Part shown: one piece after another, positions 18,817-61,900 of the stretch | Numbering within the stretch: position 1 is the first letter of the stretch | How the letters are laid out: each line of letters opens with the position of its first letter | NCBI RefSeq assembly: GCF_037975245.1 | Contig: NC_092563.1 | Span: forward strand, 13,318,001 to 13,382,000 | DNA length: 64,000 nt | Origin: Apostichopus japonicus | Lineage: Eukaryota; Echinodermata; Holothuroidea; Aspidochirotida; Stichopodidae | Reading direction: 5' to 3' | The notes under the pieces: model-generated | The model's database searches: none | What the model was told of the DNA's origin: nothing | The model's input: the letters and a program-made list of their open reading frames with translations, nothing else | Position numbers and translations under genes: made by a program

Positions 18817-20371
18817 CATGGGCGTCAATCCTGGGGGGGGGGGGGGGGGACACGTCCCCCAATTTCGATGCGTTGGGGACACACTATCAAATGTCCTCCC
18901 CCTCCCCCCCCCCCCCACACACACATTTTATTAGTGTCGTGGCTCTATTTGGTTAGGGCTTACACATCTCGGGCTTCATATCATCGAATATTAGAAGTTC
19001 AGTTCTATGAAAAGTGAACGAGAGTTTTCACATCGGTATGACCTGCAACTTTGTCTGTGTGTCGCGTCGAGCGAAATTTCAGATTTAAACCACAAGCTGT
19101 GTGCGGATAATGGTGCGGCCGAATGGAAAGCCGTTTTAACATTTAATAAAGAATTTCAGATATCTCGAAATAATTTCAGATATCTCAAATTAAATTACAG
19201 ATATCTCAAATTTATTTAAGATATCTACAAATAATTGCAGATATCTGAAATTGAATTGCAGATATCTCGAAATACCAGAGAATTTTAGATATCTGAAATT
19301 GAATTCGAGATATCTGAAATTGAATTCGAGATATCTGAAATTGAATTCGAGATATCTGATATTGAATTCGAGATATCTGCAATTCAATTTCAGATATCTG
19401 AAATAGAATTTCCGATATCTCGAATTCAATTTCAGATATCTGAAATAGAATTGCAGATATCTGAAATATAATTTCAGATATCTCGAATTCAATTTCAGAT
19501 ATCTGAAATAGAATTTTAGATATCTCGAACTCAATTTTAGATATCTGAAATAGAATTTCAGATATCTCGAATTCAATTACAGATATCTCGAATTCAATTT
19601 CAGATATCTGAAAATTCCCGATTAAATGTTAAAATGGCTTTCCATACGTAGGCCTACGCCATTTTAACATTTAATCGGGAATTTCTGCATATGCTTTTCA
19701 GATATCTGGAATTCAATTGCAGATATCTCGAATTCATTTTCAGATATCTCAAATTAGAATTGCAGATATCTGTAATTCAATTTCAGATATCTCGAATTCA
19801 TTTTCAGATATCTGGAATTCAATTTCAGATATCTCGAATTAAATTTCAGATATCTCGAATTTAATTTAGATATCTGAAATATAATTTTAGATATCTAAAA
19901 TAAGGAACAATTTCAGATATCTAAAATTCCCGATTAAATGTTAAAATGGCTTTCCATACGGCCGGAGCCTACAACTAGTTCAAGAAGTCATGGCACTTCA
20001 TAGCTATAGAGTAAAAGCCTGTACATATTTGTTGTTTAGTTGTAGATGGTGTTTCAAAGACGGTGCCTGTTCCCTAAAATTGGGGAAATAGGAGCATATT
20101 CCGTAAAAATTAAGGCCGCATGAACTTTATTGCAGATTTCCTGAGTGACGAATTTGTAATTTTCTCCCGATATCACGCAACTAGATGGCTGCTATCCAGC
20201 CTGGCAAGTGCCATCTCCAGCGATCTGGCAGGTGTTGAAATCTGATATTTTCTTGCTACGCTGCGCGCCAACCAATGGTGGCGCTCCGCTTAGATAGTAC
20301 TTGCGGCCGGAATTATCGGAAAACTCGAATCGATTAAGTCGATTAAGTTTCAAATCGGATTGACGCCCCTG
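18817..20371. mobile_element. Nested inner element of the composite
   Basis: The left end CATGGGCGTCAATCC and the inverted right end CAGGGGCGTCAATCC match at 14 of 15 positions. The flanking octamers (CTTACAAA and CTAACATG) agree at only 5 of 8, so the target duplication is imperfect or the edges are slightly off. It sits inside a stretch that in other MITE copies is continuous (cttacaaggcctggg). Confidence 0.5.
19113..19970. repeat. Twin GATATC palindrome arrays between inverted repeats
   Basis: Dozens of ~20-bp units built on AGATATCT joined by AATTGAATTC-like spacers, in both orientations, fill two blocks (19160-19610 and 19690-19925). Each block is bracketed by GGAAAGCCATTTTAACATTT and its inverse. 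The blocks meet at a perfect 12-bp palindrome, CGTAGGCCTACG, at 19647-19658. The 128-codon minus-strand ORF over the first block is a by-product of the repeat. Confidence 0.85.
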
Positions 20372-21624: not shown

Positions 21625-22520
<896 letters not shown>

Positions 22521-30155: not shown

Positions 30156-31527
30156 ATGGCCACGGCACAGGCGGAAATGAGACAAGCCGGTTACGAGCTT
30201 CTTGATCAGCTTAGACACGGCGGCTTTGACTTGGTCTACAGTGGAAAACCACTAAACAATACTACAGGAGACCCAAATAAGGTAAAAAAAAAAAAATGAT
30301 TAAAAGATGGTCATCAGTGATATTCCACTGGTATGTGTGAAAGTTCAAATAAGGTCAGTGGTGCTTCAATCTCAGTATGCATTTTACTGCCACCCTGTTA
30401 AGACGAGTTTCCCTTTACTAGAAATTTTATTCTTTCATTATAACTGTCTTCAATGGCTGGAAAATACATGGAAGGTCAGAAACACCCGAGGAAATTAAAA
30501 AGTACTTTTGAAAAGTTAATCAAGCCTGTTCAATTTTGAAACTAACGATGATAACATATCTGCTTATAATTTCTTAATTGTTTGAGATGTAAATTAATTA
30601 TTCTGCAGCGTCCTGGGTATAAAGTATAACAAAAAACAAGCTATTAATATTATGTTGGTGTTATTTGTTAGGCTGTAACTTTCATGTGTGTCGTACTGAT
30701 CTCAAGATCGTTTAAATACCCTCACAATTAGAACAATCCCGTGGCTTACTAATGGTTTAGTTCGTAAGGAAAATGTAGCCTACAGACTTTGACGTGTTGT
30801 GTTTCTGGTATACCTTTCTGTAACACTGTTAATGTTTCTGTATTCGTTCTTTTACAAGGGGTTGCCATCAAATTCACCAAATGCAGTGATATTAATTCAT
30901 GGACCACTCTTCCCAAAATGCCACTGTACGGATACCTTAGAGGCAGCAGCTCTGTTAGCGTTGGAATCGGTGACCAGTGTTGTGGATCTTCTCGGCTACG
31001 GTAAAATGTCTTTAGGCAATGATGACGTGTTCTGCCTAGTGATGGAAAAACCCACCGGCTGCATTTCCTTTGCATCATATTTAAGACGACAAACACCGCT
31101 GTCTGATACTTTGGCCTTCTTCTTCCTCGAACAACTCGTGTCCATGGTGGTAGCTATCCATCGAAGTGGCTGGGTACATGGAGACTTGAAACCCAGTAAC
31201 TTGTTGATTTGTGCTCAAGATCAACTTAAAGCCATCGATTGCGACCTAGCCATGGAGGTCGTCAATGATAAATGTATCGTACCTACAGCTGGCGGCACGT
31301 TGTTATGGAACATACTTCCCGAGCGACTAAACGGAGCGTGCGACTTGGTCAAGTCTACAGTCTGGTCTGTGGGTGTCATCTATTAATACATGATCTTTGG
31401 AAAACGACCATTTGCGTCTCAAAGCCGTCTGCTGAGATGGCATCGTAATATATCTTGTGGAGCTAAATTTATGTTCCAGCGTTTATTGGATCCCGATCCA
31501 AACAGTCGAGTAGTTATTCAGGATCTA
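30156..31527 (+). pseudogene. PIM-like serine/threonine kinase, frameshifted and interrupted
   Basis: The first part, 30156-30281, reads MATAQAEMRQAGYELL and the loop GGFDLVYSG, matching the PIM pattern GGFGSVYSG, and ends at a GT donor. The second part starts at about 30859 after an AG. The VAIK block (GVAIKFTKC, then INSWTTLPKM) is open in one frame, while everything from about 30940 on (TLEAAALLALESV to STVWSVGVIY) is open in another. Later motifs: VHGDLKPSN instead of HRDLKxxN, IDCD instead of DFG, LPER instead of PPEW, and a VWSVGVIY close to the PIM VWSLGILLY. A TAA at 31384-31386 interrupts the frame. The kinase continues past it (YMIFGKRPF, LLDPDPNSR) to a TAG at about 31527. Upstream, an Asn/Gly/Ser-rich linker (29990-30155) is split over three frames. 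The catalytic Asp (HGD) and Lys are kept, so the decay may be recent. Assembly error at the frameshifts is possible but would have to occur several times. Confidence 0.75.
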
Positions 31528-39200: not shown

Positions 39201-42200
39201 CCCCATAATGGGTTACCACTATGTCTATTCTGAAATCTTGTCTTACCTATACCTCTCGGCATAATTAAAGTGAAAGTTAACTTTTTGGCTGGGTTTGGGC
39301 TCTAGAAACATATCAAGTGGTCACCAAGCTCTCCCTATCCCCCCTCCACCCCTTGTGGTTTTGCCACTATGATCCATTCTGAAATATCATCTTACCTCTC
39401 TGTATTATTAAAGTGAAAGTCAACTTTCTGGCTGGGTTTGGGCCCTAGAATTATACCAAGTGTTCACCAAGCTCTCCCCCACTCCCCCCCACTCCTCCAA
39501 CCTCTTGTGGCTATTCACTATGTTCCATTCTGAAATATTATCTTACCTCTCTGTATTATTAAAGTGGAAGTCAACTTTCTGGCTTGGTTTGGGCTCTAGA
39601 AACATCTCAAAGAAGGCCCAGACCTTGCTGTCTCCTGAAGCATCCACTCCTACAGCATTACTACTGAGCCATGCAGCTGCACAGACTCCCAGGCTAAACA
39701 TCTCACTACAGATCCCCTCTGCAACTTTCTGCATAAAAGAATATGATAACAGAGTGATACCCTGACAATGTAAACATTGTTTCATTGAAATCAAAATTAT
39801 CATAGACAACTTCAAATGATCTTATCAGAGATTTTAATGACCATGAAAAATTATGTCAAAGAAAAAACTATTCAAATTGTTTTCACAGTGGTAAAGTTGT
39901 CAAATTTTGACCTCTGGTGACCTCAAATGATCTCTGCTTCACTCTATGACACACTATAGCATTCCTATAGTCAACCTGAGACAACAACATATAAAACTTA
40001 TATTCCTCTCAGGTGTCGTTCAGATAATGTGTTTAAAAGACCCTCCAATTTCCCCCTCTAGTGCTCTCTTATAACAACCATAGTCCAGGCTTTACAGTAA
40101 TTCTATACAAACCATTTTCTTTTTATTGAGAAATGAACCTTTAAACATCAGATACTCATCAATCAAAGTGACTGAACTACTAAGTCTAACTCACATGCCA
40201 TCAGGACAGGATCATCAGATGCACTGGTCAGTAGAAAAACATGAAGTTTCAATGGCTTCAAAGAAACATGTTTATAAACACATTTCAAATATATAGGAAC
40301 CTGGTAATGGATGTCATGCTTAGGTCCTCTGTTATTTAAAGAACATATTTTTGGTTGAGTTTATTACACATTACATAACAATTAATTAACCTTAATATTT
40401 AGACCTCAAACTGTGAAGCCAAAGTCATCATCGACCTAACTTTAAAGCAGCAGTTCAGACATTTCAGCATATGTTAAAAGTAAACATCTTGAAAATTATA
40501 ATAGCCATAGCAACCATAGCTGCTCAAATTTTCCACCTAGGAGACATAGGCACCGAAATTCTGCATACGTCGTTCTTGAGAACGGCCTGAAGGTTTGTTT
40601 CTAGCTGGCTCTGTCTTGGAAACATGTGGCTAGGAGTGAAACATTTATGTCTCATAGATGTTATATGTACTATTACCTGGACCTGTTCCTTGCCAATATA
40701 ATCATGCTCCCAGGCAGCCAGTGTCTGTTCAACAACACTGGGAATGTAATGACAAAGCTCTTCACAGCCCATTTGTCTGCAAGAGAGGAAACAAATATTC
40801 ATAATACAAATAATACATATTCATATATAAATATACAAATAATGTATCATAATATAATATATATATACAATAATATATACAATAATATATATATACAAAT
40901 AACATATAAATATAAAAAATACATATGCAAATAATACATATTCATAATACATATTCATAACACAAATAATGGGAAATAAAATGATAAATAAAAGGAAGTT
41001 TTGCAAAATCCAATCATGCTGTGATAGTAGTGATTGCCTTGTTTCCTGTTTCCTATTAAGGTGACCTATTTGACACAACCTTTCACCGACGGTAAATCTA
41101 AATAAATGTTGAACAACTTCCATGAAGTTTAATATGACACATGGCAGAGTGTAATATTACTCTCAGCTCAATGTTATATATATGTTACTATAAAATTTAC
41201 AAAGCAGATCATCAACTACACAATGCTGAGCACTTCTGCCCTTAATTATTTACTTAAAGCTATTTTTCAATCTGCTATAGTCAAGTTTTTATAAACATTA
41301 AAACATATCACTGAAGACATGTGACAAAAAGATCAACATAAATCATTTGTAAGTAATTTTTCAGTAGCCAATGAGAGTATGTAATGTATCTTACATGGCC
41401 TTAATGTCCCCTGAGGTATAGAACAGTTGCACCAATTGGTCAATCTTCATCTGTTCTGTCTGGGCAAGGGGGAGATACATGGGTTTTGCACCTAACTCAT
41501 CAGGGAGACACTGCTGAGCCCAGCGCTCAAAGAACGATTCTTCGTCGTTATTTAAAACCATCTGATCAAAGAAAGCAAAAAGAGTAAAAGAAGAAGAAAA
41601 AGGCAGGTTAAGTGCTGGACAGGAGAAGATACAAAGAGGTCTAGAATAGTATGTGATATCTGTGGTCTGTATTGGAGTTGTCACTCTCTTGTGGTATCAT
41701 ACTCCACTGATAATGTAAGATACAAAGAGGTCTAGAATAGTATGTGATATCTGTGGGTCTGTATTGGAGTTGTCACTCTCTTGTGGTATCATACTCCACT
41801 GATAATGTAAGATACAAAGAGGTCTAGAATAGTATGTGATATATGTGGTCTGTGTCACTCTCTTGTGGTATCATACTCCACTGCTAATGTAATATACAAA
41901 GAGGTCTAGAATAGTATGTGATATCTGTGGTCTGTATTAGAGTTGTCACTCTCTTGTGGTATCATACTCCACTGATAATGTAAGATACAAAGAGGTCTAG
42001 AATAGTATGTGATATCTGTGGTCTGTATTTGAGTTGTCACTCTCTTGTGGTATCTGATACCACTGATAATGTAATATACAAAGAGGTCTAGAATAGTATG
42101 TGATATCTGTGGTCTGTATTTGAGTTGTCACTCTCTTGTGGTATCTGATACCACTGATAATGTAAGATACAAAGAGGTCTAGAATAGTATGTGATATCTG

Positions 42201-45200
42201 TGGTCTGTATTGGAGTTGTTCTCTCTTGTGGTATCATACTCCACTGATAATATTATACTTTGTAACTGAAGTCTGTCACTGAAGTCCATGAAAAATGCAC
42301 CAGAAATTATGAAAATTTAAGCAAACGCTTAAAGACATTTTTGGAAAACCAAAATATAACATAAATATGTTACATTTAAATATGAAGAACACAAAGAGTT
42401 GTTTGCATTGTATTAAACAATGAATACCTCACGAATTAGCAATGGCAAAACGGCGATAACCAGATACATTTGTGGAGCATTATAAATATGATTGCAACCC
42501 AAGTAGCGAAATGTTAAAATAGACAGACTGGAATGTGAGCATTTATTGTCTATGATTTCAGATTCTGATTCCAATGTTACCAGTGGAATATCATTCATCA
42601 AGGTTACACATGGGGTTTAGATAATCTATTTTACCTGAAGATTTTCATAGTTCAAGGTGCAAAGGACAAACAGATGATACTTATTCCTCAGTACTACTTT
42701 AAGGATAATGGTAAATGCAACATTTGGTTCTGGGTTACTTTGCAACCTGAAAACATGTAGATTTTATGAGAGTGCGCCTTCATGTTCAAGCTTTTGTTAA
42801 GTGATAAATGAAGTGTCACACAAGAACATGGAGTAACAAGTGTGTCACATACAGATCCAGAAAGGGGGGGGGGGTGTATGACCCTTCCCCCTAACATTTC
42901 AACTACAGACAAAATCTTAAAACTTGTTTTTTTGTTATAGATTAAATGGCTAATAACTCATCGATAAACAGCAGTCATAAAGTTGTCTCCACTTGGAACT
43001 TTATTAGTATGATTGATGGGCACCAATTGTGTGCAATTATTACCAGCTTCGTTACAAGGAAAGAAAGTTACAAGCCGACAGGAAAATGCATCATATCATA
43101 ATCATGGCACGCAAATAGTAAAAGATATTTTGCCAAGCGTTTCCTGCTGTTGCTGTAATGTTCATTGCTTGCAAGAGCTCTTGGCAAAATTGAAAGATGA
43201 TGGTTTGCTTAAATTTTTGCAACTATTTGTTCAAAACATTATTTATGTAAAAATAACATGGTTGTAAGAATGAAGCATTGTTAAAAGCTGGTGTAAAGAT
43301 GAAGGCACCAAACATAAAATAATATTGTCATTTGATACTACTGTTAATGCAACTTTTACCTTTACTTTGAAACTCTGGGTTAGAACTCTCATAACATTTC
43401 AATTGACAATTTCATTACTGAATAAAAAATAAAAAAAGCTGCAGAAAGAGCTATGGCTGATGAAATCCACATTATTATTCTTTGTGTTAGTTATATCCCA
43501 ACAATACTGGGAATATTTAATTAGCTGTCTGGGTTTGCAAAGCAGTTTTACTATCCTCCCCCTCTTCCCAACCTTCCCCACCCTCAACCCACCCACTCAA
43601 ACACCATGCATATTGTAAGAGTCTGCTATATTACATTTGTCAACACATTTTAACTGTTTGGAAGGACCTATGTTACATTTATGTTACATTTACATGTCAA
43701 GGCTTACAGCACTTATCACTGTAGACGTACCAAGAGACCTAGTCTATGATAGGCAGACATGGGAGCAGACAATACTCAGTAATTTAGGTAATGTTAAATG
43801 CTAACAGAAATGACCGTACCGTCCCAATTTCCATTTACTGTCCCCAGATTGAAACTGTCCTAGAGCTCCACACTGTCCCTAAATTCCATCTACTATCCCT
43901 GGAGCAAGTGTCACAAGAACTTTTCCTGATTTCTTAAAAGGCACCTGAATGATCTAACTTTTGCCAGTTTGGTCTTCCATACACAGAAACAACACGTTGA
44001 GGGTAAGCTCTTTAAGAGTAAAACCAAAGAGTTCACTCACAGATAAAGGCAACCGAATTATTGAATAATTTCCCAGCTGGTAAATGTAGGTATTGCAGGA
44101 TCTAGAGCATTTGACCTTCGGCCTTCAAACAAAGCACCATCAAACACTCAGATGTTTTCTCAAAGTTCAACCCATCCCTGTTAACATACAGTGTACAGTA
44201 TATCTATAACTATTCCTAGGTGTCAAAATGATGAGTTACTCAACATCAATACCATGTCCTGGATGTTTTGAAATAAGATATGTTCACCTTACATGATAAG
44301 GCAAGTGGGATAAGCAGAAGATGGCGAATGATAAGGAGATTAGGTATTGTTAAAGGCTAACAACACTCTCACAGCAGATGTACCATTGAAGAGGCCTAGC
44401 CTATGATAAGCAAATGGAAGCATTAGATGGTAAAATGATTAGGAATCGTTAAAGGTTAAGTTACAGGCTATCTTCAACTCATTGAAAGAGAAGTACTAAT
44501 ATGGACAATGCAAATTATTTTGAGTGAATCTGATTCTGAATTTTTAAGAATATAAACTATTTTCAAAACTTATGATGAGAACTCTTTTGAACAGAATTTG
44601 TTTCAGGTTTATGATGCAACTTGTAAACTAACATATCTCACCCTAATAAATATATCCTACATATTTAAAGTCCATAAGTTGATGAAGCTGTTTCACTAAA
44701 ATCTTAAGTTCTATTAGGAGAAAGAAGCAAGTACTAATATTTTTTAGTTGCAATAAATGAATTCAACCCTGTCCCCCACCCCCCCCCCCCCATATTCCCT
44801 TCAATATCTCAACTCATGAAGTTTCCATTTCAAAAAATTAAGGAAAAGTTCACAACTGTCCCTTAAGTTACTCACTGACCAAAACGTATTGACTTGAAAG
44901 TGCTAGAAAGGACCAGGTGAGAAAACAAAGCAATGAATGAGGTGTTGGCAAACATTGATGCAAGCATTGCTCCAAAAATGATTTACTTGAGGTTGAAATC
45001 TAACAATACTCAACAGAATGATGGGCATGATATGTAAGTATGAACATGAAAATGAGTGAGAGATGGGTTATAGCAGCAAGGAGGGGGGTTTATAGGGGCA
45101 GGGAGGGGGACTGGGTTAGGGAAAGAAGGAAACGTAGGAAATATGCACGGGTGGTGAAGGCGTGATGGAAATGAGGGTAAGGCAAAATGGTTTGAAAGTT

Positions 45201-48200
45201 GTTGATCTGTATGAAAGCAATCTTTATGAGTTGAAATCTTATTTTGCAAAGTGGTTACTAAGTAACTGTAACACCTTTAACAAACACAATCAATATTTCA
45301 TTCTAAAGCATTCATGGTCAAAGAATTTTAACCATCTTTTTTTCAACTAAAAATATTTTGTGGCCCATTTTTGGTTCTTGTCATACATTTTGCAGACCAC
45401 TGTTGTGAAGTATCTTTCTGCTTTGATCACAGGCTACCATCATATTTTGAGCAATACACAAAGACTCCTAATTCCTCTGCAGCCCAAAAGTTTCTTGTTA
45501 ATTTCGTGAGCAATACTGAGAGGTTTGGCACATTATCGTCAGTTATCAATAAACCCCTACAGTTGCAATAAAAGCAGTCTTTTGGGCATTGGATGGCAAT
45601 TTAACCAAATTTACCCAAGTACTATATGACTCAAATAAAGATTGTAATGGATCAAAACTATAAATACACCTTGCTTTGATTGCTTGACCAATTCAAGCTT
45701 AATGAGCAAATGCTTGTTACATGAATTTGATTAGATTTCTCAACATTTTGTCACCCACTCACACTTTTCAAAGTGGTATGAAGCATATAAAACAAAATGG
45801 CAACTTTTGAATGAAACTGGACTAATCAAGCAAATAACCTACACTGATATTTGACTAAAAGCATTAAATGGCATCAAAAATTGATCAAAAACAACTCTAA
45901 AGTAAAAGGAAGGGAGGCATGAAATATGAGAGGCATGAAATAGTGTATGTACAACAGCATTTAGTCATTCTTTCACTGCAAACAAATTACAAGAAAATGT
46001 CATCTCCATCATCAAAATTTTGCTTCTGCTGTGTAATGCTCTTGATTAAAAAAAAAAAAAGAAGAAAAATTAACAGCAACTCGTGTGTTTCCTTGTTATT
46101 TTTGCTAGTGTATGATGCACCTAAAAAGCAACTTCTTTGGCAAGTTTATTTATTTATTTTATCTCGCTTTGGTCAAAACCGGCAGGCAAAAATTGGTAAA
46201 TGTTACGAAACCTGCTGAGTGAAGTGACACTGATACCCTAATGATGATCTCCCCAAAGAATCAGCTTGGAACTGGCCTGTGTTTACCAACTGATGGAATA
46301 AAAAGAGGCAAAACAAACAGAGAAACAGGCAAGAAATTACAGTCAGCCCTGATGAGCGGTCAACAAAGTCTCACACTTTATATCAACCAGCCTTAGAGAG
46401 TAAGAAATATGAGAGTGATGGTATTGAAACGTTTCCACTGTTTCACTCAAAATTTGTGCACCATTTCCCTGATATTGTACTATTCCTTTTGACGTTGCAA
46501 GTTAAGTTTGCAAAAGTCTGTCAGAGTTTAATTCTTCTCTTCATGAGCAAAACATTGAGCAAACTGGTTGAATTGTCACTGTAGGCAAAAGTATGGTGCT
46601 GAGGGGGCTGTAGCATCCTGCCGCCAGGCTGTATGGGACACAAAATACGTTGTGCTGTGCAGTTACACACCATAGGAACGGTACTACTTGTCTATCATGA
46701 TAACCTCTATGATTTGATATATTGATTACCATAGGCACGGTACTACTGGTCTCTCAAGATAATCTCTATAGTTTGATATATTGATTACCATAGGCACGGT
46801 ACTACTGGTCTATCATGCTAACCTCTATAGTTTGATATACTGATTCAGCCTTGCTGCAGGGCATCTTGCAGCTGCTGCAGCTTTGCTATTTGACACAGTG
46901 TCTAAAATATGTTGAGCACTTTTTACCTACTAAAGACATCTGTATCATTCTCAATGTTTTTTTACATGCTAAAACTGCTAAATGTAAACATTCAAATATG
47001 ATTTTCCTCCAGGTTCTTACCCTCACAACATTATTCCCAGCCACTAAGGTTATGCTTAAAATGAGTCAATACTGGGCTATGTGAGAAGAAATACTCCAAA
47101 GAAGAAGTGAAAGGAGCTGATGTAGTTTGTTTGGGTCATCTTTGCCACTGTGGAAGTTTTTTACAAATAAAACTTCTCCGAATATAAATTCATTTAAATG
47201 TCAACTTAGGACCCCATCTTTGCAGCTATTACTTTGATTCTTCAGGACCATGGACAGTCATTTTGGTGGTTTTTCTGTGCTCTTAGGAATGTATTTATTA
47301 TTTTTACTTTTACATTTTTGACAAATCCTCCAACTAAACCCACACAGAATCTAATGTTTGTCTTATCAAACTCCTTTGCAGAAAACCTTTGCTACTAAAT
47401 ATTGATTAATACATCGATTGCATTTACTTGTGCATTCCTCAGATTAGATCCAAATGTCATTTCAGAGGGTAATTAAAGAAATTAACACCAGATGATTAGG
47501 CAAAATGTAGATGGGATAACACAACCTTGTGTAAGGTAGGGAAGGCAGTGGTGTTGATGTATCTTACCTCAATGCCGTACTGCTGCGATATCAGACACAG
47601 CATCAAAAATGAGATATCATAGAGGGCAGCCTGCACATGCGATCCTTTGCTGCCATCAATCACCGTCGCTTTGGTTAATTCATTGAAGCTGTCAAAGTTG
47701 TGACATTAAAAGAAAGTAAGAAAAGATAAAGAGTAGCTTTCATATACAAGGGATATTTTGTTGTCAAAAGTTGATGTGTCTTTGGTTAAATTCACTAGAA
47801 ATGTAGACGTTGTAAACAAACTGATATAGATATATCAGATAGAGAGAGGGAGAGGAGGGGAGGAAGGGGGGAGGGTGGGTGGTTAGAATGTAAAGGGCTA
47901 ACTATAAGCAAGCTTGTTGCTGTCATATTTTATTGTTACATTGGCTATTTCACATTCACATGTTATCCAAGGAGTGCAATGGAATGTTCATTTATTAAAC
48001 CAATAGGTACATCAATGTCATTTTAAGCTGACCACAACAGTAAAAAGGAAAGAAATCTTTATGTAAAACATTTCATGAAACTTCCAGAGGGATAATATTT
48101 AGAACAGTGTTGTTGGTGCCTGAAGCAAAACTCTGCAAATTATAACTGTATCATCAGCATGAGCCATTCCTGACTGTGACTTTGTAACGATGTTTACTTT

Positions 48201-51200
48201 TCTGATACATTGCCACAACATTAATGAATCAGAACTAAGCCTTTATTTCACCAAAGCTGGATTAACAATACAGCATATTAACAAACACAAACAGTGTTTT
48301 CTTTCGCCATATATTGACATCTCCCATTTTTAAACTTTCAAGTAGCCTTTTATCCATCAAAGAACACTAGTATCAAAGCTAAGCCTCCTGAAATGATCTC
48401 CTCCATCGTACGAAAGCAAGACGAAAGATGATCTGTTCAAATACCTGATGAGCTTGCTGGAGAAAGTCTTGAGTTTATTGGTGGCGGCCGAGGTTGCCGC
48501 TACGAGTTGGAAACTGTTCATGAGAGGATGAAAAACATTTGGCATCTCATCAAGGACAGATTTGTCAGGAACTTCAAGGGACTGAAAGAGGAAGGAATAA
48601 AAGGTATATGATTGAAAAACAGTTCTGAAAGCAACAGTGTTGTAAGATCAAAACTTGTTTCCTTTCACATTCACAATTGTAGACGCTGTCGACGAACATG
48701 AAAGCCGGATTTGTAGTGAGTCTGTACTTGTATTCTAACATAACTCAAGGCTGTTTGGAAATCTAGCATAGAGACTGGTGCAATATTTCATAGTCTCGTG
48801 TTTGTGCTTAGAGACTGGTACTCTTACTGATATAAAGGGGAATTTTACTTGGACTCATGCTGTTGTACCTGTACTACATGTTGCCATGGAAAGATTAGAA
48901 ACCTGCATTAACAGGCCATATCACCAAAACAAACTCCAAGTTAAAGGTAACCAGTATTTGGCAGCTAAATATTTTCCTAAAATTGAACACTTAGTCACTT
49001 ACATCTAATATTGTTGGCAAGGTAGAGTTTGCTTGGATCACATATTCTGATATTTTGTGTATGACACGTGTAGTACATTTACAGCTTGACTACAGGGAGT
49101 TAAACACTTAGTGACTTACATCTAATATTGTTGGCAAGGTAGAGTTTGCTTGGATCACATATTCTGATATTTTGTGTATGAGACATGTATTACATTTACA
49201 GCTTGACTACAAGGAGTTAAACACTTAGTCACTTACATCTAATATTGTTGGCAAGGTAGAGTTTGCTTGGATCACATATTCTGATATTTTGTGTATGAGA
49301 CATGTATTACATTTACAGCTTGACTACAAGGAGTTGAACACTTAGTGACTTACATCTAATATTGTTGGCAAGGTAGAATTTGCTTGGATCACATATTCTG
49401 ATATTTTGTGTATGAGACATGTACTACATTTACAGCTTGACTACAAGGAGTTGAACACTTAGTGACTTACATCTAATATTGTTGGCAAGGTAGAGTTTGC
49501 TTGGATCACAAGGTGCTGCTGAGGAGTGGTGTCAGCTGGAGAATGACGACTCGCTTGCCTAAAAGCAAAAGACAGAGCAAGAAAAGATTATATCATTTTT
49601 GTCTTTACTCTTCACCTCATGAAAAATGGAAAGAAAAACAGAAGAAAAATCAACAGCAAAGAAAATATAAAACAAAATGATAAAGCTGTACTTGGAATCA
49701 AGTCAAGACTTTCCTTGTGATCACACATATGTTAACAGTGTTTCTTAACATGTTATCAATTTGTTATTGTTTGATCAAGTTTGGCATTTTAGTTCCTTCT
49801 CCATTTCCCATTATTTAAAGGAGCAATCCCAACCAAATCCTTTATCCTATTTTTTTATTTATCTGGTTTGATAAACAACTCCACCAAACAACTAACAAAT
49901 AATTTCGTTCCATTTGGGAGATTTTGTTCAAAAGTCATGGCAGTAGCCATTTTATGAACATATGATGCCATTTTAGGGCCACTCAAAGGTGAAATCTCCT
50001 AGTTTCCTTTTTTTTTATTTTTCCAAATTTTCACTTTGAACATAAGAAAATTTATCACTGATATCAGGTAATGTTAGTAACTTCATCATTGTAGCAACAA
50101 CATTAGCAAATACTTGACTCGGGCTTTGTAGACTATGTGACTTAACCGATCTTGAAGAAAGAAGGCCAACTAATGTACGCCTACCTCTTAGCCATCAATT
50201 CTGTAGCTTGTGTCTCATTCAGAAGTTCAAGTTTGACAAGCTGGCTGAGGAATTGTTGGAAGCAGTCGCATCTGTGAAAGGATTCAAAGAATTATCAATA
50301 GGTATTACTCAAAACAAGGAGAGGAGATAAATTCACCTCATTTATGGGCCTCATGTTGATTGAAATCGACATGAGCATGCAAAGATGCAAGTCCACAGGA
50401 CTCTTACTAGGAATAGAAATGACAAAAGAGGGGAATGAATGGAGAGGAGATGGGAGTCGAGGGAAGGACTGGCTGGTTTTTCATTGGTTGTCATTGGCCA
50501 GCATTTATGTCCATTTTCAACAGTGTCCTATGCCATATCCCTATCCACATTACAGAACTTCACCTTAAACCATTTAACTTCTTAGGTCAATAATCTGTGT
50601 TATTTGGGCTTGTTTTGGGTTAATACTAATGTAACTGCAGCATCTTGAAGAAATTTGCCAGAATTGAATTAAAACGTTAACCATTCCTCATGTAGCTTTC
50701 AGTGAATGAAAACAAGCTGCCTGTGTCTTTATGCATTCAGATGTTATCGCATTTGATCAATACTTTGGTACATTTCTCAAAACTGCCCTGTGGACCAAAT
50801 CCAGAGACTTGGAAGAATATATGCACTGTCATTTAACTATGTGTAAAAGTAAGTTGGCCTGAAGTTTCGATCCTAGCAGGATCTTCTACAGAGGCTAAAT
50901 GACAAGTAACAGTAACAGAAGGGACAAAAACATACACAGAATACAGACAGGTTAATGAGCAGGGTGAACACAAAGAGATAGATGTAAGGGGATTAGTAGA
51001 CAAGGGATGGAGAAAAGAAAGAGAGAATAAACATTGTCATTTAACTATGTTCACAAAATGATTTTGGCCTCTCGACCACTTCAGAATAGTATTTAAACAT
51101 TTTTTATAATTTAAAAAGTGAATGGAAACAGCTTTTCTATAATGAAAAAGGAAGAAAGAAGAAAACGAGTAGTCGTGGATGATTTCTTACTTGTGTTTTG

Positions 51201-54200
51201 TATCTGCTGAGTCGATCAGGGAGACGTACTGCAACAGATTGTCTAATCCGTGATACAGAGCAGAACTGTTAGGATCAATGGATGACACATTATGATGGAG
51301 GTAGCTCAGAATCTTGGGCAGCTAGAGAAAGAGACAGATGAGTCAAAGAAACTTTATGAGTGACGCAGAAAATATGAACTTTATCCTGAGTGGCAATTTA
51401 TTAAGCAATGTATATCTGTCGAACAGATGAAAGATATTTATCATGAGGCTACTTGTCAAATTATCCAACAGCAGAATTGAATTTGGTTGTGAGACAATCT
51501 GCACTCGTAGATGAAACCAACAGAAGATACACGTAAGAAAGCATGTACAGAAGAAGAGGTTGCCTTTTATGTGTCTAGGAAATTAGGATCCTAAAAGTAC
51601 GAGGTTTGAATTCAGAGAGGCCAAGGTTTTCTGCTGTACGATGATATGAGACATAAATTTGAATTGAAGGTATAATGTGCCACAAACAATAAATTTCTAA
51701 ATCACATACCTAAGTAAACAGGTTAATAACATTTGACTAAAAACTGCCACCAAGATCCAACATCCCACTCTATGAATGCTCCATCCCTTAAAATAGAAGG
51801 GCCTATTTTAGCATGTATAATAAGGCTACATACTGCATAAATGGCACTCACAGAATATGTTCACCATATAATTTGATAAATGATCACATATCCTACTCCT
51901 TTCTCCGCAACACACATGCCTACATGTTAAAACAAGAAACAACTGTGGCCATGTGGATAAAGGCGGTGGCATTTGAAACAATGACGCTAGCAATCGGGAG
52001 GTTCGGGGGTTCGATCCCCGGCCGGGTCATAGAAGGTGGGGTTTTCATCCATGAGCAATCTACGATATTCCCATCTGAAACGACTTTCTAAATTAAAATT
52101 TTTCCAAATTTGAGTTAAAATGTTGAATTGGAAGCCACCCGACGTGAAAAGTATACTCCAAATGCCCTTTTGGGCTTCTCCCACATTCTTGGTCGCTTAA
52201 GCATCGTAAAAATAACTACCTGATTATTATTATTATTTTTATAGCCTAAAACAACAACCACTGTGTAATGTTTCCATGAGATGATACCACTAACCTTGAG
52301 AAACAGAAACGCAAACGATCGAATCTGGTCAGTATCATCTGAGGAGTCTACAAGACCCAGAAGTGCCCCTTGGCATAAACTGGTGTACAACTGCTTCCTG
52401 GATAAATTCTATGCGGTGAGAACAAAATTTAAAGAATTAAAAAGCTACCATTTCATCTTTGAAGGCATTGTTCCTTTTTTCTGTACTAATAAACGTTTGG
52501 TAAACTCCTAATATTTTCTACGTTGAGCAAGAAGGATCTTAAGCATACATTGAACTAAGGGGTTAAATTTCATTTACTAAGCTTTTTCTGTAACCCCTGC
52601 TCACTTGCCCAGAGATCTCCTTTTGTCCATAAATACAAAACACGTTTTAAGAAACACTAAGAAATACTTCTTATCCAATGTATGTTCCTAAAATGATTTG
52701 GCTAATATAGGTGCTACAGCTAAAATGTAAAGAGGTTCTCACATTTCTGTTGAGAATAAACATTTTCTAGTTTAATATTGGATGCAATGAATTCAAACGA
52801 TGAGGAAAAAAAATATGATATAAGCACCTCCTCTACCAATAATGTATTTTTTTTAAATAAATAAAATAACTCAAATAAATAAAAACATATATAGGATATC
52901 AATCTCACCTGCAACTTCTCATAAAGAAGTATCTGATCAACAAACAGCTGAGGATCATGGGTAATGGTCAGATGTGTTTCGATAAAGGTCATGATGTTAA
53001 CATAACAGTTGACATAGCCAGTGTAGTACTCCATGCTGTGAGTAGTTGGTAGGTATTTACCACTGTAACTGCAATTTGGAACCCTGAAAATTAATTTATC
53101 ATCATAAGAAGTTAATCATCAGAAGAAAATCCCACATATCTACATTATAAAGCAAAACTTTTCAGTAGTGAAGATATTTCTCCATTATTCGAAACTATAC
53201 AAGGCTAGTTAATCTAAATGAACTTCACTGTGATGTGAATTTAGTATACACATGTATATTATTCCAGATTTATGAACTAAATGTTGACTGTCATAGGTAT
53301 CTTTTTGGGACTCGACAAGGATGTATTGCTGTAGGCATCTAGAACAATGAATCAACCATTCAAAAGTTAGCCAACATTTCCTTTTTTTTCTTTTCTAAAA
53401 ATGTCCCAAATGGCTAACTGTGAAAGTATAATCGATCACAATATGCACCGTCTCAAATCGAGTGACATATGGGCTTTCTTCCAATCCCTTCAAATTGCAA
53501 ATCAATTACAAAAGAGACAGGAAAACAGAGAGAAGCATAGAAACAAAGCTACTCAAAATCTGAGTCAACAAATCACAGATGAAGTAGCAACTTACTTAAG
53601 GGCACTATCTAATGCTCTCTCTAATTTAAACTTTAACGTTTCGTTGACAGTTCTCTCCTTTCCGTCTTTCCTCTGTGGGCTGGGCTGTTGTCTGTTACTG
53701 TTTAAGGCTTGCTCAAGATGGTTACCTATGAAGGAAATATATAGAAGGTAAGAGTGGCTGACATGGTTACCTATGAAGGAAATACATAAAGGTAGGAAGG
53801 GCTGACATGGTTACCTATGAAGAAAATACATAAAAGGTGAGAAGGGCTGACATGGTTACCTATGTAGGAAATGTATAATAGGTAGAAGGGACTGAGATGG
53901 TTACCTACGTAGGAAATACATAATAGGTAAGAGGGGCTGAGATGATTACCTATGGAGGAAATTTATAAAAGGTGAAAGGGGGTGAGATGATTACCTATGA
54001 AGGAAATATATAAAAGGTGAAAGGGGCTGAGATGATTACCTATGAAGGAAATATATAAAAGGTGAGAGGGGCTGAGATGATTACCTATGAAGGAAATATA
54101 TAAAAGGTGATAGGGGCTGATGTTTTCATCCTTGCAGGATCATACTCAAAGTCCCACTAGACAAGAAACAAAGAGTAGGGACACATTTAAAAATAGACCG

Positions 54201-57044
54201 ATGGATGCACAACTTAAAAATGAATAAAGAATATGCAATAGAGTAAAGCAACACAACATGACTCATGCCACCTACAGGCCTGTAATGAGAAAACAGAAAG
54301 ATGTAAATTCAACTTTGCCGACATTGTTAGTTGCCTGGCAGTTCTTGTAAACAGACATTTAACAGTATTTCACCACTGATCGAATAAACAAATTTAATCG
54401 GCCTGGAAACTGGTATGAAAATTCTAACTACCATTAAAATCATGCCCAGTACAATTCTTATGAACTAAAACAAAGTATGGCAGAATTGTAATGTTCTTTC
54501 TTTCTTTTTTTGCTGAAGTCAATATAAAGACTTTCTTAAAAATGATTAATTACAATGCCTGATGGCATGTACAGGTACAGTTTCACCCTTTTATGAGAAG
54601 CACATGTATAATAGCTTACCTCTGTTTGTCCCTGATGCATGTGCATTTATTATTGTTGATACCGAGGCTATTTCACCTTCCAGTTGGCTCCATAATGCTG
54701 TTAATGAAGAATGTTGGACACATGTGTCAAGGACTATTCACATATCTACAGTAATTGATGGTCTTTATAGCTTCATGGGTAAATTGTAGTCTCTGGTAGA
54801 GTACAACAAATGTACAAAATTTAAAATAAAATACTGAATGGACAAAACCTGTCATTACATCCTTTTCTGTGTGAGCAGGATATGAAAGTTTGTCACTTTA
54901 GGCACACCTGATAGAGAGAACTTGCATCATAATAATAACATCACCATACCAACCAACTCTTGCCATAGCAAGACATGAGAAAGTGAGAGATCTCGAATTA
55001 CCGTCACCTAGGCTACTACGTTCTTGGTTAAATGATTCATTGCTTCTGACCATCTTTGCTGAGGCAGATGCTTATCAATTTGCTTTCCTTTTTAAGACTA
55101 ATTAATGATGAGTGGATGGCCTTTCATAACATTTTCCATGTACCCCAGTGGAGTTTTTTGTCATGCACAGATCCCCTCCATCTGTACAGCAGTCACCCAT
55201 AGACTTCATGATCTGTTTATTTTATTTATCCTTTAGCAATGGTAACACACAATACCAGTGATGCACTAAGGCTTTTGTGCAAAAGCTAACCCTCTCCCCC
55301 TCCCCTTGATGACCTTGCCCACCCCTTCCCCTTCCCCCTCCACCACCAGTTATATCCAAAATTCATTGTTTGATATATGGTTGAAGAACAGTCATAAAGT
55401 AGCAAAGCTTTTCAAACTTGAAAGAAGCAATGTCATTCCAGAGATTTGAAGGGACACTGGATTCTCCTGTAAGAAATAGGGTAACCTACAACAGAATAAA
55501 AAAAAGGTATTTATACCTCTCTTTTGGGTAATTTAAGAGTGTTAGCTCAGTGGTTAATGCCGGTGCCTTCCAATCATAAGGTCCCGAGTTTGAGTCACTC
55601 CAAGATTAATGTATGTTGTCCAGTTACAGAGTTGTTGACAATGGACAATACATAATCAAGGACATTAAATATGAATCTAAGAGACTGACTTCGGTCAGCT
55701 TGCGGCTTTGATAAGCCTGAGAGGCTTCTTTGCTAGTTCCTACTTGCAGGAGGATCTAAAATACATACATACATACCTTCATCCTCTAATCTGGCTATGT
55801 AGAGTAGCATCCTGGTCTGGTCTTGAGCACAAATACCGTAGAGAAGTTCACACATCTGCATTAGGTTGGTTACGATTTGAATGCTGGAGCCATTCTCTGC
55901 TATTTTTTCCAGTGACAGGCAAATCGATTTGACTAACCACAGAATCACCTGAAGCAGAGCTACAGCAATTTGGAGGCACTCGTCTGGAGGGCCGAGACAA
56001 CTGTCAAAAAGAGATCACTGATACGTCAGTTATTCCTCAACTTTGACCGGATAGCAAATGAAGTAAATAAATTAACTTGCAAACAGTTCTAAAAAATGAT
56101 AGCATTAAATGTGATCATATCCAAAAGTGATATGCAAGAAAAACGACCGGTTCACCTGATTTTTACCACGCACAACTTGAGAATTTCGAGAAGACTTTTC
56201 ATACAGAATGGCCTAGTGACGCAGGTATTTTCGTACTTGGCCAGACTTCTAAGAACGGCAACATGAGAGACCATCTGAAAGATAATTGAACAGAGTTAGC
56301 CGTTAATGTAAAAGAATCGATACAGCAGATGGCGTCATGAGTAACTTGAACAAAAACAATATGGTAGAGTTCTATAGTTACAAATATCACACTGAATTAA
56401 ACCATTCCTTACCTGCGTGCATATGGAGTGCTTCAAGTAAGAGATAAGTAGAGAGGAAGGGTTTGGACCAATAAACATCTGACTGAGGATCATATCTGTT
56501 AAAATATGACAAGGAGCAAAAAAGAGAAAAGTTTAAAGAGGTAAATTAAAAAGATAAAGTATTAAAAGCTGTTGCATATCACTATTGTCACTTTTACATC
56601 AAAAATTCAAATTTCTACCAGATACACATTAGTATATTTAGTGACAATGTTCCAAAATCATGATGAAGCATTTCTCCTCAACCAGAAGGGTGCAATCAAA
56701 TGATGGTTATAAACTGTTCATCTGCAACAGGGCTGCCTAATATGTGTCAACTAGTCAGCCCTAGGAAGAATTACTATAGTATTATATTCCTTAATGATAT
56801 TTGTAATAGTGTATGTATGTATGTATGTATGTATGTATGTATGTATGTATGTATGTATGTATGTATGTATGTATGTATGTATGTATGTATGTATGTATGT
56901 ATGTATGTATGTATGTATGTATGTATGTATGTATGTATGTATGTATGTATGTATGTATGTATGTATGTATGTATGTATGTATGTATGTATGTATGTATGT
57001 ATGTATGTATGTATGTATGTATGTATGTATGTATGTATGTATGC

Positions 57045-57078
<34 letters not shown>

Positions 57079-57616
57079 ATGTATGTATGTATATTAGATC
57101 CTCCTGCAAGCAGGAACTCGCGAAGAAGCCTCATTGGCTTATCAAAGCCGCAAGCTGACCGAAGTCAGTCTCTTCCATTCATATTTAACGTCCATATTTA
57201 ACGTCCATAATTATGCTTTGTTGTATGAATTGTATGAAACATGAATTGTATGAATTGTATGAGTTGTATGCATTGTATGAAACAGAATTCACTCAGGTTT
57301 TATAGCAACCGATTATATTTGGTCCGCAAATCTCTGGTAATTTTGTTCCTTGCAACGACAAGTATTACTCCAAATTATAAAAAAAGTGAAAAAAAAAAAA
57401 ACTTCAGGTGATCTATAACGAAAGCTCCTATCATTTGTACTAGTTTCTCTGCACTGAGCAGGTATCCTTACCACAGAGTGTATATCCATCGATGGTGGCA
57501 CCTTTCAACACTCTCTTCATCTGAATACTCCACTGAATGTCGGGCAGCCTCTCTTTCCATGCTCTCAGCAAGAGCTCCTGCACTGCTGTGTATGTTTGCT
57601 GGGCATCCATCATCAT
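33270..57616 (-). CDS. MED24: MED24 Mediator tail subunit, complete, 21 coding exons
   Basis: Coding exons 5' to 3' on the minus strand: 57616-57472, 56495-56413, 56274-56156, 56000-55777, 53725-53596, 53083-52909, 52408-52295, 51321-51191, 50271-50185, 49558-49471, 48581-48445, 47688-47568, 41561-41395, 40776-40677, 39728-39547, 38781-38498, 37975-37784, 37112-37039, 36036-35859, 35288-35143, 33395-33270. All borders are GT-AG, phases chain without a break, and the sum is 3003 nt (1000 codons plus TGA; human is 989). Recognised blocks include LRAWKER and GATIDGY (exon 1), YDISFLMLC (exon 12), VCAAAWL (exon 15), ALAKLTVWC (exon 17), a KRKRTR basic stretch (exon 18), KLRRLLSIPEDE (exon 19) and SVLQFMP-like TVLQFMP (exon 20). 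LXXLL motifs LDNLL, LPRLL and LRRLL are present. MED24 (TRAP100) is a helical scaffold of the Mediator tail that links activators to RNA polymerase II. Intron 12 is about 6 kb. The first of three consecutive ATGs is used as start. Confidence 0.96.
37431..37661 (+). mobile_element. tRNA-derived SINE, family 1, copy 1
   Basis: The head GTGTTAGCTCAGTGGTTAAC holds a box A (TAGCTCAGTGG), and AGTTCGAGTCACTCC holds a box B. The body has GACTGACTTCAGTCAGCTTG and a hairpin CTGCTTGCAGG, followed by a short TACATA tail. It lies in MED24 intron 17, antisense to the gene. Confidence 0.85.
39236..39612 (-). repeat. ~150-bp tandem copies of the 3' part of MED24 exon 15 with donor
   Basis: Three units carry CTTACCT donors (minus GTAAG) at about 39242, 39391 and 39542. 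The partial exons still read PKPSQKVDFHFNNTER in the middle copy, PKPSQKVNFHFNYAER in the outer one and PKPSQKVDFHFNNTER in the true exon. Only the true exon has its acceptor. Confidence 0.88.
41625..42255. repeat. Seven tandem units of about 85-92 bp in MED24 intron 12
   Basis: ATACAAAGAGGTCTAGAATA starts units near 41629, 41720, 41812, 41894, 41986, 42075 and 42168. Each continues with GTATGTGATATCTGTGG and CACTCTCTTGTGGTATC. It lies about 60 bp from the exon 13 acceptor but copies no exon sequence. Confidence 0.9.
46668..46850. repeat. Three tandem ~64-bp units in MED24 intron 12
   Basis: ACCATAGG(A/C)ACGGTACTAC, then CTCTAT(A/G)(A/G)TTTGATAT, repeats three times. Confidence 0.85.
48984..49510 (-). 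repeat. 117-bp tandem array copying the 3' part of MED24 exon 10 and its donor
   Basis: ACATCTAATATTGTTGGC recurs at 49001, 49118, 49235, 49352 and 49469, exactly 117 bp apart. In each unit the minus strand holds the last ~40 bp of exon 10 (ending ATATTAGAT) followed by GTAAGT. Only the rightmost copy has the full exon with an acceptor. The others are decoy donors in intron 10. Confidence 0.93.
51944..52247 (+). mobile_element. tRNA-derived SINE, family 2, in MED24 intron 7
   Basis: The tRNA-like head has a box A-like TGTGGATAAAGGC, a long variable region and a box B, GGTTCGATCCCCGG. The 3' end is a (TTA)n tail. AAACAAC at 51937-51943 and 52248-52254 flanks it as a target duplication. It is antisense to MED24. 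Confidence 0.8.
53715..54125 (-). repeat. 45-bp tandem array copying the MED24 exon 5 acceptor
   Basis: GGTTACCTATGAAGGAAAT or GATTACCTATGAAGGAAAT recurs nine times at 45-bp spacing from 53720 to 54079. On the minus strand each unit ends in TTCATAG followed by GTAA, the acceptor of exon 5. The leftmost copy is the real acceptor and eight lie upstream in intron 4. Confidence 0.9.
55539..55776 (+). mobile_element. tRNA-derived SINE, family 1, copy 2, abutting MED24 exon 4
   Basis: It has the same head, body and CTACTTGCAGG end as copy 1. Its TACATACATACATAC tail ends exactly at the exon border, 55776/55777. On the minus strand that tail reads GTATGTATGT, which is the splice donor used by MED24 exon 4. 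Confidence 0.85.
56811..57093. repeat. (GTAT)n microsatellite in MED24 intron 1
   Basis: About 280 bp of GTAT repeats contain a short GT run (57043-57062). It runs directly into the tail of an inverted SINE copy, so it probably grew from the SINE's TACA tail. The Cys-Met-Tyr-Val ORFs here are not genes. Confidence 0.95.
57094..57210 (-). mobile_element. tRNA-derived SINE, family 1, copy 3, truncated
   Basis: Only the 3' half is present, in inverted orientation: GATCCTCCTGCAAGCAGG, then CAAGCTGACCGAAGTCAGTC and the TTTAACGTCCAT stretch, which is duplicated. The tRNA-like head is missing. It joins the GTAT microsatellite. Confidence 0.8.
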
Positions 57617-58989: not shown

Positions 58990-61900
58990 ATGGGGGCTAG
59001 TTGCACGAGAGAGAAAATAACAATCGATGGTAGAAGATTTTATGTCATAAAACGCCTTGGTGAAGGGTAAGATATAAAACAGATCAAGTTCCATCTTTCC
59101 CTGGTCGGAGTCTTTCATTTACTTGTCAAAGATTTTGAAATCAACAAATTTACTTGTCATTCTCAATTTATGAACGACACGTTACAATATCATTTACTTA
59201 GTTAATATAGGCTAGTCTACTTATTTTATATAATGAATTAATGTTAGGCCTAGTAAGAGCATTTAACCCAATTACAGAAGTCAGGTGTTCGTCATTCTCA
59301 TATTAGATTGAGAACGACACTTTAATGGCAGTTAAAAATTTATGGAAGAATCCAATTGGGAAAGAAGGGATTTGATCTATAAAAAACATTGGAAGTCATT
59401 ATAACTCCAAAGTTTCCTTTTTATTTGTAATTAATTTCAAAGAATTATATATTAAAAATTAATAAGTTTTTTGGTATTGATACTTATTCATCCCCCATTC
59501 ATCTACTTACTAAATTTGTACACCCATCTGCAGAGTTCATCTCCAAAGCTATTTCATCTCCTAAGTCCTAGTCGTTTCACCTCCTTTGTTCTGTCTATTT
59601 TACTCCACTCATTGTTCATTTAGTTGTCTATCATGTGTCAAGTTTAAATGTGTCCTTGGTCTGTTTTTGATTCAGTTATCCTGCAAAAGCTGTGTACGCA
59701 CAGCTTGATCAGGAGATTTTCTCCTGTCACACCTCGTTTAAAGTTTGATTTTGAAGAAGATCCTGCTAAGATCAAAACTTCAGGCCTCCTAACTTATAAA
59801 TTTACCTACACAGGCTTTTGCAGTAGACATGTAGTTTGTTACCAGTTTTTTTTCTCTCTTTTCTCTCTTCCCATAGAGGATTTAGCTATGTTGATCAGGT
59901 GGAAGAGAGCAGTACAGGAAAAAAGTTTGCTTTAAAAAGAATTCAGTGTCATTCAATTCCAGAAGAAAAGGCTGCTGAGGAAGAAGCTAAATTTCATCAG
60001 TTATTTAATAGCCCAAACCTAATTTCATTAGAAGCTTGGTGCAAACAGACAGCTTCAGGGGAAGATTCAGAAGTGTTGCTGATTTTGCCATATTTAAAGG
60101 TATTGGGTTTGAGGGCTTGATGTTTCTAATAATATGAGTTAACCTACTGTAACAAGTCCTAGATAATGTTAGCGGTGGACGATGATCTACAGAGGCAACA
60201 ATATAGAGCCTTAATTTGATAACAATTTAAAGTGGCCTTCCTGTTGCAGACAATGTGACATGTATAGGTCTAGAAAATAAAATATTCCATAGTCAGCTGA
60301 AAACCTCATCTCAATAGCTTGTTTTTAACTCAATGTTGGTAGAATGTAAACCTATTTTGACTGGCTAAACCCTTGATTCTTCCAAGGATTGGATCCAGGC
60401 GCGTAGCGAAAGGGGGGGGGGCAAAGGGGCGACCACCCCCCCCTTGAGCAAATTTTTTTGTGTATGTTTTTATGATATCGCTAGTAATTTCAAAATAGAA
60501 AATGCTTAGATGCACTTACACTGTTCGGCCACCATTTTCTTGTACGCTTCGCGCCAACCATGGTGGTGCTACGCTTAGATAGTTTCCAGTGCGGAATCTA
60601 CGGCTCTAATAGTTTGCCTACAGGTTCGCCCCTCCCTACACGCCTGATTGGATCACAGTACAGTAGGTGGTCTGTGATAGATTAGGGATAGACTAGGGTT
60701 AACCCTATGGTAGATGTTTTCAAAGGTTGTACTTCCCTACTATAATCATGGGAAGTGTGATATTTTTGGTTTGTTTGCTTAGCTGTCGATGTTCTCTGTA
60801 TTTAGAATTTCACAAAATTCAACTTTTTTGTAGAAACAATATTTCCTCTGTGAATGTGAGTTCTAAAGGAATATTATTAAGAAAACAAAAAGCTTTTTTC
60901 CCTGCTGAATCACCATGATGAAAGCATTCTCACTGTTGTTTCCAGATGCATTCACAAAATACTACCAGATTTGAAAACAACATATCTGTGTCATTACAAA
61001 TGCTATGAGCATGTTGCTATGATCTAAAGATGAAGAAATATTCCAGCACTTTTATTAAGCAATCTATTTCAGCCACTGGGATTTCCATTTACATCCAGGA
61101 TAGATAATCCCATTCATTCCGCAGGAGCTTAATATTAAATATCCATAAATTTGTCTCAATAAAATAAAAATGCCAATTTGTTTTAAATTTCTTTAATAAT
61201 GCTTGATTGCTGCCAAGATGCTGTCTGGAACTCTGAGGCCATGACTTAAAACTTTCACATTCCTTCCTCAGAGAGGAACCTTGCAAGATGAGTTAGACAA
61301 ACTCTCAGCGAGGAGTGAGCATCTTTCAGAAGAGAGATTATGGAAATTAATTAGAGGTATATGTGAAGGAGTACACGCCCTACACCATACAGACCCACCG
61401 GTTGCTCACAGGTAAAGTTCAGTTGTGTCTTGTACTGTTATTGAACACCGATGAATGTTGTCCTCTCCATGTTCAAAGTTCACCTTGAACAGTACAAGTA
61501 AGAATAGAAGATGTTGCCAAATAATGCTTTAATGGTTTTGTAATGTGAAGTCACAAACTCAGGACATCCTCAGATATTGATCACAGATGAAGAAGCATCG
61601 CTTTTAAAAAACCTTGATTTGTGATCAGTAGTCGACTTTCTCTCCTCAGCATGCAATATTCGGTGGAAGCATGGAGTGTAACTCTTTAAAATGAAACATA
61701 CCATGTCAAAATATCAAACAAACTCTTGTGAAAAGTGCACTGGTAGCGTTTTACTGGATCTTCTCTCTTCATGTCAGATTTGATATTATTTGGTCTATGT
61801 TTGTATTCATTCACAGTCTTTCATCAGTGGTTTTAGGATAAAGTTTTGGTGTAGTTAAAGTATAACTTGTTAGAAGCATGAGCTCTTGGTTGGATCGTTA

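Follow-up and report, generated by a model that had tools for sequence, protein, structure and literature searches.

The intron that follows an 88-nt exon of the MED24 gene contains a tandem array whose repeat unit straddles the exon-intron boundary, the end of the exon and its splice donor occurring five times in a row. It is likely that this array is a minisatellite of the type described in amphioxus under the name of 'mirages', that only the first donor is used, and that the remainder is removed as intron at little or no cost to the gene. The window, i.e. the whole stretch of DNA that was analysed, is 64,000 nucleotides long.

Tandem Repeats Finder placed the array at 48986-49510 on the minus strand, with a period of 117 bp, 4.5 copies, 97% matches and 0% indels. 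Each unit consists of 40 bp of exon and 77 bp of intron; it starts with the exon tail, the donor GTAAGT follows, and the units are arranged head-to-tail. GTAAGT is present in all five exon-tail copies, its first G lying at 49470, 49353, 49236, 49119 and 49002. Copy 1 is the last 40 bp of the 88-nt exon itself. Copies 2 to 5, on the same strand, occupy 49354-49393, with one synonymous difference (AAC to AAT), 49237-49276, 49120-49159 and 49003-49042. The unit of copy 5 stops after 57 bp, which reflects either trimming or an origin of the array with a 60-bp filler. When the exon tail with its donor was taken as a 39-base pattern, the window gave five matches and 100 dinucleotide shuffles gave none. 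The four full units are identical to one another at 111-115 of 117 positions (differences at 2-6), and across all five copies seven columns vary, some of them through a change in a single copy. The original prediction of half an exon, with its donor, tandemly copied into a MED24 intron as five near-identical copies of exact period was thus borne out.

When the 671.6-Mb assembly was searched with the 117-bp unit (by a search that skips very common words), five matches were obtained, all of them within the MED24 array. The exact exon-tail pattern had no match in the prokaryote and viral collections, from which records of the genome itself were possibly excluded, and an Rfam search also returned nothing. 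Variation in the copy number of the array is plausible.

The 88-nt exon lies at 49471-49558 on the minus strand. Its acceptor, TTTGCTTTTAG followed by G, has its AG at 49559-49560 and is the sole strong acceptor among the copies. The next exon, of 137 nt, lies at 48445-48581 (minus strand) behind the strong acceptor TTCCTCTTTCAG followed by T, and the intron between the two is 889 nt long. The joined peptide of these exons matched the Pfam family Med24_N with an E value of 6.6e-8; its match with human MED24 was weak (16 bits, E about 0.1). MED24 was matched in three of six whole-frame PDB searches, the other three frames giving no match. A Med24_N search of the genome itself, in which the best candidates were scored, gave 11 exon matches, all in the window, and no second MED24 locus. 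The number 10 given earlier to the 88-nt exon is not fixed, as part of the upstream MED24 exons is unmapped. MED24 is flanked by plus-strand open frames of protein-kinase type, at 30793-31383 and 59827-60117. Simple repeats are also present in the window: TGTA x 70 in a MED24 intron at 56810-57092, (TA)70 at 21626-21765 and, at 19151-19901, a long array with a 21-bp self-complementary unit (GAATTTCAGATATCTGAAATT).

Splice sites were scored in bits with a position weight matrix. The five donors of the array score equally, at 7.8 bits each, and the acceptor of the 88-nt exon scores 11.2 bits. Only donor 1 gives a short exon; with donors 2-5 the exon would be 205, 322, 439 and 556 nt long. In each of these longer forms the reading frame continues as D-V-S-(H/D)-stop. 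The earlier argument from the divisibility of 117 by three therefore has no protein meaning, because TAA is met within four codons after every one of donors 2-5. The claim that only one copy has an acceptor holds for strong acceptors; each of the four intronic units does contain a weaker candidate AG, of 5.0 bits.

These features suggest the following course of events. The array would have arisen by a tandem duplication with its unit lying across the exon-intron boundary, and would have grown by slippage or unequal exchange. With a unit that starts within the exon and runs into the intron, the copy beside the real acceptor would retain the full 88-nt exon with its donor, and the other tail and donor copies would land in the enlarged intron. 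Exon definition would then pair the strong acceptor with the first donor, and everything after that donor would leave as one intron of 889 nt. With that intron removed whole, MED24 mRNA would be unchanged and the array, we infer, close to neutral. In favour of this reading, tandem arrays are common in the genome, and the published amphioxus mirages share the anatomy and come, for Adh3 and globin, with data that point to regular splicing. Counting against it are the equal scores of the five donors (in minigene work, duplicated donors of equal strength often favour the one closer to the intron's 3' end, a choice that would be harmful for MED24) and the fact that the published cases found come from lancelets whereas the present host looks like an echinoderm.

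The equality of the donors is also a reason to consider a harmful array, in which the extra donors would compete with the first, divert transcripts into stop-containing forms or a retained intron, and lower MED24 output as copy number rises. The TAA within four codons in each retained form fits this possibility. In the human CBS gene, enzyme activity is lower with more repeats of a boundary-spanning 31-bp VNTR, according to a review (PMC5188458), and decoy exons are handled jointly with intron retention in the portions of the literature consulted. Against this, amphioxus mirages are reported without disturbance of splicing (PMC3087553, PMC3902484), and no mark of conservation was seen on the MED24 array. 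On balance an array that acts as a decoy is unlikely.

The weaker AGs raise another possibility, exon birth: the units would be latent cassette exons, each with a weak acceptor, 87 nt in frame and a real donor, and each spliced in at some level to add 29 residues. Candidate cassette 1 runs on the minus strand from the acceptor CTCCTTGTAG, followed by TCAAGC, to donor 2 (49354-49440), and cassettes 2-4 lie at 49237-49323, 49120-49206 and 49003-49089, also on the minus strand. In each of the four intronic units the 87-nt stretch keeps the frame and has no stop. When the intronic part was shuffled, an acceptor of equal or higher score with an open in-frame stretch arose in 2.5% of cases, but this figure concerns a frame that was selected after inspection. 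The globin paper itself proposes that a mirage unit could be recruited as an exon (PMC3087553). However, the candidate acceptor, at the 90th percentile of AGs on the minus strand, stands at 5.0 bits against the 7.5-11.4 bits of five real MED24 acceptors, and four other AGs of the 889-nt intron score higher (5.9-6.6 bits, leaving aside the genuine acceptor of the downstream exon). Neighbouring copies could hardly both be used, as a donor is separated from the next candidate acceptor by 30 nt only. The first half of the cassette, moreover, resembles that of the real exon only weakly. To see whether the entire exon had been duplicated and its first half had then diverged, the two halves were aligned; the alignment of 48 with 47 nt gave a global P of 0.02 (shuffles) or 0.055 (random 47-mers from the window), local alignment gave P 0.39/0.51 and the peptide P 0.30; an earlier variant with the acceptor included had given P 0.0075. 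Duplication of the whole exon was not accepted, and it is very unlikely that the units are spliced in as exons.

The preferred reading, a near-neutral mirage, gains from the finding that the array is not alone in MED24. A second donor-side array lies at 39250-39605 on the minus strand, with a period of 151/143 bp, about 2.4 copies and about 82% identity, and at that identity it is older than the 117-bp array. Its unit consists of the last ~56 bp of another MED24 exon and a GTAAGA donor, with donors at 39546 and 39395 and an altered third near 39252/39246. The exon in question (182 nt, 39547-39728, minus strand) is a weak match that is collinear with the rest: alone it scores 10.8 bits (Pfam cut-off 25) and 3.7 bits against human MED24, and its order fits its neighbours.

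A probable acceptor-side array of the gene lies at 53716-54120 on the minus strand, with nine copies of 45 bp. Its unit is the end of an intron (TTTCCTTCATAG) with the first ~10 bp of an exon, and in each unit AG is followed directly by GTAA, giving an overlapping AG/GT. After the last acceptor of this array comes a probable 130-nt MED24 exon (53596-53725, minus strand), and the assignment to MED24 is based on phase, which fits the previous exon, and on order. Alone this exon matched no Pfam family and no PDB entry, and joined with the previous exon it gave no PDB match at E 0.01; the joining raised the Med24_N score from 38.0 to 38.7 bits only. Two further arrays look intronic, one of 91/182 bp at 41626-42251, which ends ~65 bp before a MED24 acceptor, and one of long period in MED24 at 46669-46845.

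Nor is the array unique in the genome. The last ~30 bp of a dynein heavy chain exon, with the donor, are repeated in an array of 66 bp x 15 (L028:4176-5160, G000:C23). Here the frame is open through donor 2, which would add 22 residues, and shifts afterwards; among the 14 intronic copies, four have T as the last exon base. The idea that the copies derived from exon are under purifying selection was considered and rejected (3/69 vs 11/114 variable columns, P 0.26, with the dynein indel copy removed); three of the 15 dynein copies were excluded from this comparison, namely the exon copy, the indel copy and the degenerate last copy.

The frequency of such arrays was estimated from the dynein genes. 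The sample comprised 48 of 85 exon matches at nine loci, and copies were sought for each match with 40 bp on either side. A donor-side array was found at one of the 48 (the locus above) and an acceptor-side array at none. In MED24, 15 exons had a profile or PDB match, in several cases a weak one, and two of them have a donor-side array; this figure is biased, as the gene was chosen for its array, and the dynein 1/48 is the unbiased one. For the base rate, 20 stretches of 10 kb (200,000 bases, two of the stretches flanking the window) were scanned; arrays with a period of at least 40 bp numbered 20 and covered 4.3% of the bases. From this coverage about two of the 48 dynein matches would be expected to have an array, so that the one observed is roughly what array coverage alone would give and there is no sign that splice sites are targeted; enrichment at splice sites was accordingly rejected. 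Some dynein arrays were not counted as boundary arrays. That at L032:1632-2533 (G000:C10; 40 bp x 22) starts ~14 bp past the donor; it contains many donor-like GAGGTAT words and was read as intronic. The L031 array and that at 1121-1236 of L028 are also intronic.

That the MED24 copies come from misassembly or the stacking of haplotypes is extremely unlikely: short arrays can be miscounted, and one aberrantly assembled mirage is remarked on in the amphioxus globin work (PMC3087553), but the copies differ at seven columns, some changed in one copy only, the array is just 525 bp long, no second MED24 locus was found, and there are other arrays of this type (39250-39605 and the dynein array at L028).

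The identity of the host was examined through mitochondrial DNA. COX1 on the mitochondrial contig C35 (16,099 bp) scored 923 bits with code 9 and 882 bits with code 5, the two codes compared, and COX1 is followed by nad4L and then cox2. Echinoderms, and flatworms too, translate their mitochondrial genes with code 9; the order COX1-nad4L-cox2 is typical of echinoderms. The host thus looks like an echinoderm, outside the cephalochordate range of the published mirages, and a lancelet origin, at first suspected from the work on mirages, was rejected on the fit of code 9 and the gene order. A search for the GFP family gave no matches, and its controls likewise gave none. Several pieces of COX1 with TGA codons occur on another contig, at G000:C29:14745-31219; they belong either to mitochondrial DNA inserted in the nuclear genome or to a further mitochondrial contig.

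The mirage class is already known, and as far as could be seen within the literature searched, echinoderms are a new phylum for it. No echinoderm mirage was found there, and among the matches listed the term belongs to two lancelet papers; an ascidian paper (PMC7710358) has one word beginning 'mirages'. In amphioxus, mirages came to light one gene at a time and were put forward as material from which new introns and exons could arise. Their presence in two conserved genes of a host that looks like an echinoderm suggests that they are no lancelet oddity, and with a chromosome-scale assembly one can measure across the genome how frequent and how unstable they are and what they cost in splicing. 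A bolder view, which we hold to be unlikely, is that boundary-straddling minisatellites are widespread in echinoderm and lancelet genomes, at ~2% of exon 3' ends (from the dynein 1/48), and form a reservoir of latent exons and splice sites. If this were true, the 87-nt cassettes of MED24 and the 22-residue extension of dynein would be early stages of new exons or splice sites.

The closest known counterparts are the amphioxus mirages, in which exon-intron boundaries are tandemly duplicated in the manner of a minisatellite (PMC3087553). They are described in Adh3 (units of 10-72 bp) and the globins BflGb6/BflGb9 (150-160 bp) (PMC3087553), and also in troponin C and PGBD5 (PMC3902484). Either the donor or the acceptor side may be involved, and many of the copies carry splice signals. 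Adh3 data and globin RT-PCR suggest that regular splicing is unaffected (PMC3087553), and troponin C splicing is also stated to be intact (PMC3902484). They show length and somatic instability and were proposed as a source of new introns (PMC3087553). The MED24 array is like them in its boundary-spanning tandem copies with splice signals: its repeats are head-to-tail and of minisatellite size (117 bp x 4.5), its unit spans the boundary and GTAAGT is in every copy. It differs in its host, which looks like an echinoderm and not a lancelet, and in its gene.

Human CBS offers two further parallels. Its 31-bp VNTR, c.1444_1467+7(16_21), lies at the boundary of exon 13 and intron 13 (PMC2630376), and the unit, the exon end with the first 7 intron bases, is again an exon tail with its donor. 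The VNTR, however, is polymorphic, has 16-21 copies and is associated with activity, whereas the 117 bp x 4.5 array of MED24 is seen in one assembly. In CBS 844ins68 a splice junction is duplicated, as in MED24, and there one site is strongly preferred and the mRNA is normal (PMC2630376). Finally, in intron gain by tandem duplication (the Rogers model; in potato, and in the near intron pairs of Drosophila), sequence with splice signals is likewise duplicated, and in the potato case the duplication crosses an intron-exon boundary. There a new intron arose between the duplicated segments; in MED24, with 30 nt between a donor and the next candidate acceptor, the old intron would only have become longer.
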